From contig CAIOGM010000110.1 of the NCBI GenBank assembly GCA_903857795.1, positions 1 through 32,939 of the forward strand: a DNA stretch of 32,939 bases, read 5' to 3'. The translations under genes were made by a program, and so were the position numbers. The notes below the pieces were generated by a model. The model saw only the letters and a list, made by a program, of their open reading frames with translations, did not search any database and was not told the origin of the DNA. This DNA comes from an uncultured Geobacter sp. (GTDB lineage: Bacteria; Desulfobacterota; Desulfuromonadia; Geobacterales; CAIOGM01). Below, in pieces: positions 24,369 to 28,289 of this stretch (positions are counted from its first letter, which is position 1; the number at the start of each line of letters is the position of its first letter).

Positions 24369-26732
24369 GTGTCCGGAGCCGTCGAGATGCCCCTGTCAGA
24401 CAACTATTCGGTGTTGAGCAGTGCGGTGCGGGTTGCAAGCTCCGGTAAACTCTCCTATGAGGCCCGGCTCCGGGCCCTCGTCGAACTTATCTTTCGCACT
24501 TTTTCCCTCTCTTCCCTGGCGGTCTATCTGGTGGACGAAGATCGTCGCCATCTCACCCGCAAGATTACCGATGGCGCCGACTCCGCTCCATCGGGCTGCT
24601 GTATCCCTTTCGGCGAAGGGGTTGCCGGACGATGTGCCCAAGAGAAGGTGCCGGTCACCCTTGAAGCTGCCTTGGCAGTTACCGAAGAGTGGCGCCGGGG
24701 GGGGGAATTGGCATTTGTCGCTCTTCCTCTCCTGGACGAGAGCCGTCTCTACGGTGTCATCTCCCTGGGCACGGGGGAGTCCGGCGTTCTCTCTCATGGA
24801 GAGATGATGCTGTTGAACGATCTCATCCCCGTGTTGACCGGAGTCGTCAACAGTTATGGCGTCATCCAGTGGGCCGATCGACGCACCATGATGATGGAAC
24901 AGATCGCCGACTTGGCCAAGGTACTCAACCGCTCGCTCCACCCCGATCTCCTCGTCCCGCAGATTCTGCAAGCCAGTCACCGCGTCACCGACTCCTGCTG
25001 TACGGTGCTGCGCCTCTTTCCCAATGACGCGGGGATTCCTCATGGTGTTTTTCACAAGGTCAAACACCGGTTTCGCGCCTGGATCGATACGTTCCTCGAC
25101 ATCGAAGCGGCCTGTTACGGGAGAGTGGCTGCCACCGGCTTCCCGCACCTGGCAATCGACCTGATAGCCGACGAAGATATCCCCCCCTCCTACATCTCTG
25201 TGCCGCTGTTGTTCGAATCTCGCCCCATGGGAACACTTACCTTCTTTGGCAAGGCCGGAGTGGGGTTCCCCCCCTGCAATTATAACGAAGAGGAGCGGGA
25301 GCTCTTCTTTAATCTGGCGACCCTCATGGCTAACGCTCTGGAGAGCGGGGCAAATTACCGGTCGATGGTGCTTCTGACCAGAAATAATCAGGAGAAGGTT
25401 GATGAGCTTCTGCTGCTCTACCGGGTGGGGAAGATCATGCTCTCTACCCTCAATCTCAACGAACTGATCAGCCTGGTCCTCTCGGCTCTTACAGCCGGTT
25501 GTTCCCCCTATTTTGACCGGGCTATGATCTTTCTCATTGATGAGAAGGGGCAAAATATACAGGGGATGTTCGGTGTAACCAAGGAGAGCGTTGGGGAAGG
25601 GATTCTTCTCCATGATGAAAATGAGCGGTGCGCCTGGAGTCACTCCACAGGGGTTCAGGAGATTATTGACCGCCAGTCAGGTTCGGCGTTCTGCGTCCAG
25701 GTCAAGGGGACGAGGCTCCCCCTGGATCCCCTCAAGAACATCTGCTCCCGGGCTGTCCAGGATAAACGGCTGTTCCATGTCTCCGATATCAGCCAAGAGG
25801 AGATTCTGGACCGGAAAATCATCGAGCAGTTTGGAGTCACTGAGTTTGTTGCGGCGCCGCTCATTGCCAAGGATCAGGTGATCGGGATACTGCTGGTGGA
25901 CAACGCGTTGAGCGGCAGGGCCATGGCCGAAGATGAGATTCGTTTCCTGCAGCTCTTCTCCAATCAGGCGGGAACCGCCATAGAGAACTCGATCCTTTAC
26001 AACCGGCTGGAAGCGGCCAACCGTGAGTTGAGCGAGACGCAGGAACGGCTCATCCAGGGTGAACGGCTGGCGGCAATCGGAGAGATGGCCGCCAGTATTG
26101 CCCATGAGGTAAAGGGGCCTCTGGTATCCATCGGCGGTTTTGCCCGACGACTGACGAGAAAAGCGGTCCAGGAGTCTGACGAATGGCGCTGCGCCGATAC
26201 AATCGCCCGCGAGGTCTCCCGGCTGGAAAACCTTCTCACCGACATCCTCTCCTACTCCAAGAAGAGCACCATCTGCTACAGCGACTGTTCGATTGTCGAT
26301 GTGGTGGAGGAGGCGCTGGAACTGGTGGGCCACTTGTTCCAGGAGGTGGGGATCGTGATCAGGAAAGAGCTTGCACGAGATCTTCCGCTCCTTTTGGGGG
26401 ACGGTCAGCAGCTCAAACAGGTCTTTATTAACCTTTTCATGAATGCCCAGGAGGCGATGAAGGGGGGGGGGGAGATGAGCGTCACGGTCCGTTTATCTGC
26501 TCCTCATGATAGGGATGCGGTAGTGGTGGCGATCAGTGACAGCGGTAAGGGAATCCCCCCTGAGATACTGCGCAACATCTTTAATCCATTCTTTACCACC
26601 AAGGCAACCGGTACCGGCCTGGGACTTCCCATCGTGCACCGGATTGTAACCAATCATCTTGGCCGAATCGAGGTAGCTAACCAACCGGGGGGTGGTGCGG
26701 TTTTTACCGTCATATTGCCGTTTCATCCCTGA
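24369..26732 (+). CDS. Triple-GAF sensor histidine kinase
   Basis: 787 residues, cytoplasmic (no membrane segment). Three GAF-like domains lie at about 25-165, 175-335 and 355-545, followed by a coiled coil and the H-box MAASIAHEVKGPLVSIGGFA with His579. The ATPase domain has the N-box QVFINLFMNAQEAMK, G1 DSGKGI, and GTGLGLP. The H-box reads EVKGPL where most kinases have EIRNPL, though it shares GGFAR with the other GAF kinase at 19024-20583. A run of 11 G (26462-26472) lies between the N-box and G1. The GTG start at 24369 has GAGG before it; an ATG at 24387 is the alternative. No response regulator is adjacent, so it is an orphan, probably co-transcribed with dksA. Confidence 0.9.
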   Translation: MSGAVEMPLSDNYSVLSSAVRVASSGKLSYEARLRALVELIFRTFSLSSLAVYLVDEDRRHLTRKITDGADSAPSGCCIPFGEGVAGRCAQEKVPVTLEAALAVTEEWRRGGELAFVALPLLDESRLYGVISLGTGESGVLSHGEMMLLNDLIPVLTGVVNSYGVIQWADRRTMMMEQIADLAKVLNRSLHPDLLVPQILQASHRVTDSCCTVLRLFPNDAGIPHGVFHKVKHRFRAWIDTFLDIEAACYGRVAATGFPHLAIDLIADEDIPPSYISVPLLFESRPMGTLTFFGKAGVGFPPCNYNEEERELFFNLATLMANALESGANYRSMVLLTRNNQEKVDELLLLYRVGKIMLSTLNLNELISLVLSALTAGCSPYFDRAMIFLIDEKGQNIQGMFGVTKESVGEGILLHDENERCAWSHSTGVQEIIDRQSGSAFCVQVKGTRLPLDPLKNICSRAVQDKRLFHVSDISQEEILDRKIIEQFGVTEFVAAPLIAKDQVIGILLVDNALSGRAMAEDEIRFLQLFSNQAGTAIENSILYNRLEAANRELSETQERLIQGERLAAIGEMAASIAHEVKGPLVSIGGFARRLTRKAVQESDEWRCADTIAREVSRLENLLTDILSYSKKSTICYSDCSIVDVVEEALELVGHLFQEVGIVIRKELARDLPLLLGDGQQLKQVFINLFMNAQEAMKGGGEMSVTVRLSAPHDRDAVVVAISDSGKGIPPEILRNIFNPFFTTKATGTGLGLPIVHRIVTNHLGRIEVANQPGGGAVFTVILPFHP
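26462..26472. repeat. Eleven-G homopolymer inside the kinase gene
   Basis: Eleven consecutive G encode KGGGE in the ATP-binding domain. Runs of this length are prone to slippage; a one-base change would remove the G1 and G2 motifs. Confidence 0.95.
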
Positions 26733-26799: not shown

Positions 26800-26875
26800 G
26801 GGGCTGTAGCTCAGTTGGGAGAGCGATGCGTTCGCAACGCATAGGCCAGCGGTTCGATCCCGCTCAGCTCCACCA
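26800..26875 (+). tRNA. tRNA-Ala (anticodon CGC)
   Basis: 76 nt with encoded CCA. The acceptor stem GGGGCTG/CAGCTCC contains the G3:U70 pair that identifies alanine tRNA. The anticodon arm is ATGCG-TTCGCAA-CGCAT, anticodon CGC (reads GCG). D-arm (GCTCAGTTGGGAGAGC) and T-arm (GCGGTTCGATCCCGC) are normal. The sequence downstream is AT-rich and decayed, which makes the 3' end a likely integration site. Confidence 0.97.
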
Positions 26876-26889
26876 GTAAAAACAAGGAC

Positions 26890-27075
26890 TTAAGCGAATT
26901 GCTTAGGTTCTTTTTTTGTTGTCGCTAGGTTTTCGTTGCCGTTTCGTTGCCGTTTTAGTATCTCTAGTACCCCGTCCAGCTTGAATCGTCGCAAAGTAAG
27001 CCGGCATAACGGCTCGATTCTGACGCTTTCGTCATCACCAAGATGAAGAAGCGCCAGAAACTTTAAGCAGGACAA
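26890..27075 (-). pseudogene. Possible remnant of an integrase C-terminus beside the tRNA
   Basis: A leftward frame of 61 codons ends 14 bp from the tRNA 3' end. Its C-terminal end, LEILKRQRNGNENLATTKK, with Asn-Gly-Asn repeats and a Lys-rich tail, recalls the tails of phage-type tyrosine recombinases, and the position next to a tRNA is where such a gene would lie. None of the catalytic R...HxxR...Y residues is present, so if the guess is right only the tail survives. It may equally be a chance frame. An 11-bp direct repeat (TTTCGTTGCCG) underlies the NGN part. Confidence 0.25.
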
Positions 27076-27157: not shown

Positions 27158-27432
27158 AACGATGGTCAGGCTAGGGGTGTAGAAGTGAACGACCTCAGGA
27201 GAGGCTGTCCGCTTACGGTGTCTCGTGCTCCCGCCCTGACTGTTTCCTATGTCTACTTGTGAACAGATGTGGTATGACGGAGTCTCCTTAACCCCTCCTC
27301 TCGCCTTCTGGGTGAGCTTCAATTGGGTATAGGATGCTCCCCGCAAGTGATCCTCATACCAACATAACGAACTAACACAGTCGTCGCTCTCGTCATCTCC
27401 AGCCACTTACCCTCAACCAAGGAGAAGTATCA
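27158..27432. other. Stretch without a recognisable gene
   Basis: A leftward open frame of 89 codons crosses it but has no Shine-Dalgarno, no known motif and ends in the terminator hairpin, so I do not call it. A hairpin GGTAT-AGGAT / ATCCT-C-ATACC lies at 27326-27360. An AAGGAG Shine-Dalgarno for the next gene begins at 27419. Confidence 0.5.
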
Positions 27433-27664
27433 ATGAAGAAAGTTCTGTCCTCATGCCACTCCTACCACTGCTCCTGCTGCTGTTTCGGCTGAGGTCGCTC
27501 CTGCTGCTGCCAAACCTGCCAAGGAGTGCGAGTGTAAGCCTGTGAAGAAGTGCAAGTGCAAACCCGCTAAGAAGTGTGAATGCAAGCCCGCTAAAAAGAC
27601 AAAGAATTCAAAGAAGGGGAAGAAGGCTAAGAAGCCATCAGATCATGCGGCTCCTCTCTCATAG
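27433..27664 (+). pseudogene. Broken gene for a Cys/Lys octad-repeat protein
   Basis: AAGGAG lies nine bases before ATG 27433, which begins MKKVLSS, a typical signal-peptide start, but this frame stops at 27490-27492. From about 27458 the +1 frame encodes an Ala/Pro/Val segment (APAAVSAEVAPAAAKPAK), then three octads CECKPVKK, CKCKPAKK, CECKPAKK, and a Lys-rich tail ending at TAG 27662-27664. The +1 frame has no start codon of its own after the TGA at 27434. The hydrophobic core of a signal peptide is missing, so a deletion with frameshift near codons 6-8 is the likely cause. The CxC repeats suggest metal binding in an exported protein. A perfect terminator follows. Confidence 0.7.
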
Positions 27665-27724
27665 AGCACCAAGTAGGAGAAATCCACCGGACAAATAGTC
27701 AGGTCGAAGAGTTAAGATGAACGG

Positions 27725-27768
27725 AAAAGACCGTCAACAAGGAAAGTAACTCCTATTGACGGTCTTTT
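27725..27768 (+). terminator. Strong rho-independent terminator
   Basis: A perfect 13-bp stem AAAAGACCGTCAA / TTGACGGTCTTTT with an 18-nt loop. The symmetrical A and T ends allow function in both directions. It follows the Cys/Lys repeat gene by 60 bp. Confidence 0.85.
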
Positions 27769-27850
27769 GTTGTTTGAGTTCAACGTGCTCCGTAACTGCC
27801 ATGCCTCTATATGCAGCGCTGAAGGCATATTCTAGCGAAATATCTAATTA

Positions 27851-28279
27851 CTATGTGCCGTGATCGAATTCACGACGACCGCCAACCTTATCTCTTCCGA
27901 ACGGCTTTAGATTGGCATCTTCAATGATGACGTGGTGTAACAGCCATTTGCTTATGAAATCTATCAGTTCGTTCTGGTGTGACTCATCGCCATCACTAAA
28001 TTCAGACCTCATCCTCGCTACCTGTTTCGTAAACTCATCATGCTCGGCAATATGCCTCATCATACCCATGTAACCATTGTCCAGCATCAGTATTCGTTCT
28101 AATCTGAAGTGGGTGTTGGAGAAATGTTCAAGTTGTGTGATGTAGTAAGAGTTGTATTCACTATCATTGACTCCACTGCATCGAGAACGAATAAGACTCA
28201 GAAGGTAAAACAGACCTTTATGGTGCATGTCAAGTTCTTCGTCATCTACTGAGTATCTTTCGTCCCATTCAATATCCAT
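27851..28279 (-). CDS. Bacteriohemerythrin
   Basis: 142 residues. All ligand motifs of the di-iron O2-binding site are seen: LDMHHKGL, FSNTHFRLERILM (His plus Glu), MRHIAEHDEF and WLLHHVIIED. The protein is a stand-alone hemerythrin domain, likely an O2 carrier, store or sensor in a microaerobic or anaerobic cell. The ATG at 28279 is chosen over a GTG three codons upstream because that GTG falls inside the Shine-Dalgarno AGGTGAT. It is isolated, with no gene close by on its strand, and lies in the AT-rich island. It appears intact, unlike most of its neighbours. Confidence 0.93.
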   Translation of the reverse strand: MDIEWDERYSVDDEELDMHHKGLFYLLSLIRSRCSGVNDSEYNSYYITQLEHFSNTHFRLERILMLDNGYMGMMRHIAEHDEFTKQVARMRSEFSDGDESHQNELIDFISKWLLHHVIIEDANLKPFGRDKVGGRREFDHGT

Positions 28280-28289
28280 GGTGATCACC

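Follow-up and report, generated by a model that had tools for sequence, protein, structure and literature searches.

The small gene with three cysteine- and lysine-rich octads at positions 27433–27664 of an uncultured Geobacter sp. contig is best read as a recently inactivated extra copy of a gene for a small exported protein. The sequence comparisons put the probability of such a fresh pseudogene at roughly 80%. The window, a stretch of 32,939 nt, comes from contig C110 of a draft genome (4.05 Mb in 179 contigs), and an intact paralogue is found on contig C84 of the same genome. The window copy is unlikely to yield a functional protein.

The transcription unit and its surroundings

The gene occupies a short transcription unit that opens with a leader, has its ATG at 27433 and runs through the repeats to a strong terminator hairpin. 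Upstream lies a tRNA-Ala (CGC) gene (26800–26875), the only RNA match in an Rfam search, and downstream a convergent bacteriohemerythrin gene (27851–28288, minus strand) with Pfam and NCBIfam matches above the cut-offs. The 5' leader (27401–27432, plus strand) is homologous to the leaders of paralogues and places the Shine-Dalgarno sequence AAGGAGAAG before the ATG. At the other end, an intrinsic-terminator hairpin with a T-rich end (about 27719–27774, plus strand) folds at −25.4 kcal/mol (z −5.3); the C84 copy has its counterpart in the same place, with a shared stem sequence. The strong ribosome-binding site and terminator described in the first-pass annotation are both present. No sigma-70-like promoter was found upstream of the repeat gene (0 vs. 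0.7 expected).

Several features of the neighbourhood may be recorded separately. Directly 3' of the tRNA gene, positions 26876–26960 contain a terminator-like hairpin and a TCGTTGCCGTT repeat, perhaps a scar left by an element that once integrated at the tRNA; a second copy of the tRNA-Ala 3' end was not found within the window. Inside the frame of a sensor histidine kinase-like gene (24369–26732, named by eye), an 11-G run at 26462–26472 may be prone to slippage or phase variation, or may be a weak point in the sequencing. Bacteriohemerythrin-type genes occur near both CxC copies, one adjoining the window copy and several, named by eye alone, near the C84 copy (L005 5406–7959, minus strand).

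Two frames share the window copy. The remnant of the original start (27433–27492, plus strand) reads MKKVLSSCHSYHCSCCCFG, with MKKVLSS as in paralogue starts, then out-of-frame residues and a TGA stop at 27490–27492. Initiation at this ATG now yields a nonsense peptide of 19 residues. The +1 frame is open from 27437 to a TAG at 27662–27664 and reads RKFCPHATPTTAPAAVSAEVAPAAAKPAKECECKPVKKCKCKPAKKCECKPAKKTKNSKKGKKAKKPSDHAAPLS. It holds the repeat-frame remnant (27452–27661, plus strand), consisting of an Ala/Pro linker, three CxC octads and a Lys-rich tail, and has no ATG, GTG or TTG upstream of a GTG at 27542. The two frames overlap over 27437–27489, as had been noted earlier.

The intact paralogue and the lesion

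A search within the same genome recovered a further copy of the gene on C84, 67% identical to the window copy. This is the intact homologue with a full signal peptide that the first reading of the locus had proposed to look for. It encodes 91 residues, MKKILSSIVAALVALSFAGIVCAADPTPAVVPAATPTAAPAAVPAEVAPAVAKPAKKCECKPAKKKHTKKKHMKKARKSAGHAAPLSENTK, laid out as MKKILSSIVAALVALSFAGIVCAADP...KPAKKCECKPAKK...HAAPLSENTK, with the signal peptide and tail in one frame. The layout suggests Sec export with cleavage after VCA. Composition and sub-threshold profile matches suggest that the mature protein is disordered, strongly basic and periplasmic.

At the DNA level the two copies align from ~30 nt before the start codon through the terminator, and the leader and start (27401–27452) are 82.7% identical. 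The alignment has a single large gap, which coincides exactly with the signal peptide. Between the ATG and the shared GCCAC(T/C)CC lie 22 nt in the window copy vs. 99 nt in C84, placing a deletion junction at approximately 27454/27455 (plus strand). The ~77 missing nt encoded the hydrophobic core and cleavage site of the signal peptide along with some of the Ala/Pro linker. As ~77 is not a multiple of three, the remainder of the gene is out of frame. The frameshift reported near codon 7 was thus correctly recognised as a disrupted frame, while its cause is this deletion and not a small frameshift. Gaps in the opposite direction correspond to the extra octads and longer Lys tail of the window copy.

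A second lesion-like stop lies near the 3' end. Where the window copy has the TAG at 27662–27664 (plus strand), C84 has GAG (Glu), four codons before its own stop, and the sequence behind the window TAG, AGC ACC AAG TAG (27665–27676), matches the C84 end (xxx ACC AAG TAG). Alternatively, this C-terminal stop may reflect a harmless shortening of long standing, or an extension of C84.

Despite the lesion, the repeat frame retains the imprint of selection. Over 46 alignable codons the window copy and C84 differ with pS = 0.50 and pN = 0.09, the differences falling 5/4/18 across the three codon positions, and octads compared with one another show 4 to 6 synonymous changes and only 1 to 2 non-synonymous. 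Mostly synonymous divergence, both from C84 and between octads, indicates from the aligned codons that the repeat frame encoded a protein until recently. An intact homologue and conservation of this frame had been named beforehand as the points on which the idea of a protein would stand or fall; C84 is such a homologue, and against it the frame is conserved. The signal implies that either the lesion is young or the assembly is in error.

An assembly or sequencing error, in which the three-octad gene would be intact in the real genome and the draft in 179 contigs would have introduced the 77-nt gap, is unlikely, yet it deserves the most weight among the alternatives. It would account for a repeat frame in which selection looks undisturbed and for the retention of ribosome-binding site, start and terminator, and the several near-identical signal-peptide copies in the genome could confuse assembly. 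However, homopolymer errors do not typically take the form of a 77-nt gap in a 32.9-kb contig that is otherwise continuous, no long collapsible repeat is seen at the junction, and a separate stop lies near the 3' end. The size of the gap, the second stop and the lack of any evident repeat that could have collapsed favour a real deletion over an assembly error.

Tandem CxC octads

The first-pass annotation singled out three octads with CxC motifs, an Ala/Pro linker and a Lys tail, and these are borne out in the +1 frame. The octads CECKPVKK, CKCKPAKK and CECKPAKK, evident from translation and pattern search, run consecutively over 27527–27598 (plus strand). Their pairwise identities sum to 20/24, compared with a maximum of 15 and a mean of 6.3 in 20,000 residue shuffles, so a tandem repeat this regular is far from what chance would give at this composition.

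The unit is narrowly distributed. Two octad patterns searched across the order matched in this genome only, in C84, which has one CxC octad, and in the window copy, which has three. A search of GTDB 220 contigs with a 49-aa octad/tail peptide gave no confirmed relative. The octad DNA pattern matched 12 stretches in GTDB 220 (84,980 species) vs. ~7 by chance by the author's estimate; none of these held a tandem array, each being one isolated unit, usually within a very short open frame. Confinement to this genome points to an origin of the CxC unit in this lineage. The octad counts suggest that it then multiplied in the window copy, or that C84 lost units.

Metal binding by the octad peptide CECKPVKKCKCKPAKKCECKPAKK is plausible from its CxC motifs, and the unit could serve in soft-metal binding or disulfide formation. 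The octads resemble bacterial metallothioneins in having CxC motifs with Lys-containing spacers. They differ in that the known bacterial metallothioneins are cytoplasmic, whereas the Lys/Ala-rich family has a signal peptide, and in that the window repeats hold only six Cys. No metallothionein profile in Pfam or NCBIfam was matched. It is doubtful that the three-octad protein survives intact in the living population, with the deletion an error or specific to a strain. Octad expansion would in that case have produced an exported metal-binding polythiol within a disordered periplasmic family that otherwise has few or no mature Cys.

Far less probable is that the deletion created a new cytoplasmic Cys/Lys peptide of 40 aa starting at GTG 27542. 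The frame is open there and a purine-rich stretch, AAGGAG (27521–27526), lies ~15 nt upstream, but this spacing is long, the start falls inside the first octad and no homologue was seen with a start at this point.

A multi-copy family of small basic exported proteins

The C84 protein and the pseudogene belong to a family of small Lys/Ala/Pro-rich exported proteins (MKKVLSSIVAALVALSFAGIVCAAEP...). With one sibling of C84 as the query, this multi-copy family is present in 125/141 genomes of the order and in 98/103 of the good genomes. C84 itself as the query gives 5 to 6 matches per genome in the window's genome, where the broken copy is counted twice, as two pieces, and in three genus-mates. 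All 16 intact copies listed from this genome and its genus-mates are in a single frame with a full signal peptide, which is nearly alike in most, followed by a mature part rich in Ala, Pro, Lys and Glu. Nearly all intact paralogues begin MKKVLSS, MKKILSS or a close form, and many other family copies match 27401–27452 over 22–54 nt. The window copy shares the conserved leader, the MKKVLSS start, the Ala/Pro linker and the Lys-rich tail with the family, but lacks a complete in-frame signal peptide and has three CxC octads. The description of a small exported protein of unusual type therefore holds for size and signal peptide, as seen in C84, while the type itself is a variant, carrying Cys, of a family that is very common. 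In two siblings (L017 and L025, both with matches at 1501) the sequence finishes with ...KKKKKEVAGC, giving a C-terminal Cys not seen in the other listed members.

Programmed +1 frameshifting, earlier suggested from the overlap over 27437–27489 as a way of joining MKKVLSS to the repeat frame in a functional protein, is the least credible alternative, as the fused product (MKKVLSS, then linker) would have no hydrophobic core or signal-peptidase site and would not be exported, 16/16 listed intact copies use one frame, and the stop context GGC TGA GGT is unlike the CTT TGA of the known RF2-type site.

Against Pfam and NCBIfam, neither CxC member (C84 or the window remnant) reaches a cut-off. The nearest likenesses lie below. 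C84 scores 19.4 bits against the NCBIfam model for Asr, the acid resistance repetitive basic protein (NF033636, cut-off 50), which the window remnant does not match, and 18.2 bits against Bd0108, the Bdellovibrio hit-locus protein (NF053838, cut-off 40). Asr is likewise small, with a signal peptide and an Ala/Lys-rich, repetitive, basic mature part; it is not known to have Cys repeats. Bd0108 is a small disordered protein of similar layout. Asr is cited in PMC10746267 as a periplasmic intrinsically disordered chaperone, and PMC4267844 describes Bd0108 as intrinsically disordered. By analogy, these matches support a similar way of working rather than membership of either family, and a chaperone-like, Asr-like role is suggested for C84. 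The tail of a ribosomal protein came up in the PDB (E 0.008) and was dismissed as low-complexity Lys/Ala similarity, and a literature search for Geobacter lysine-rich small secreted proteins returned nothing relevant.

Under the pseudogene reading, the ancestral product would have begun with a Sec signal peptide, continued through an Ala/Pro linker and ended in a Lys-rich tail, where the CECKPAKK unit had grown to three. The deletion would then have taken out the greater part of the signal peptide and thrown the downstream codons out of register, leaving the short nonsense peptide as the product of the ATG. The function is probably still served by the intact C84 copy, whose product would reach the periplasm, be cleaved after VCA and behave much like E. 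coli Asr, being polycationic and disordered; its CxC site may bind a soft metal.

The main lesson for reading such loci is that a striking repeat in a shifted frame can be the remnant of a decaying duplicate. The wider use lies in the family itself, small Lys/Ala-rich proteins with a signal peptide, often several per genome and in nearly every genome of the order. Within it, the CxC variant would be an example of a protein of this kind gaining possible metal sites through short tandem repeats.
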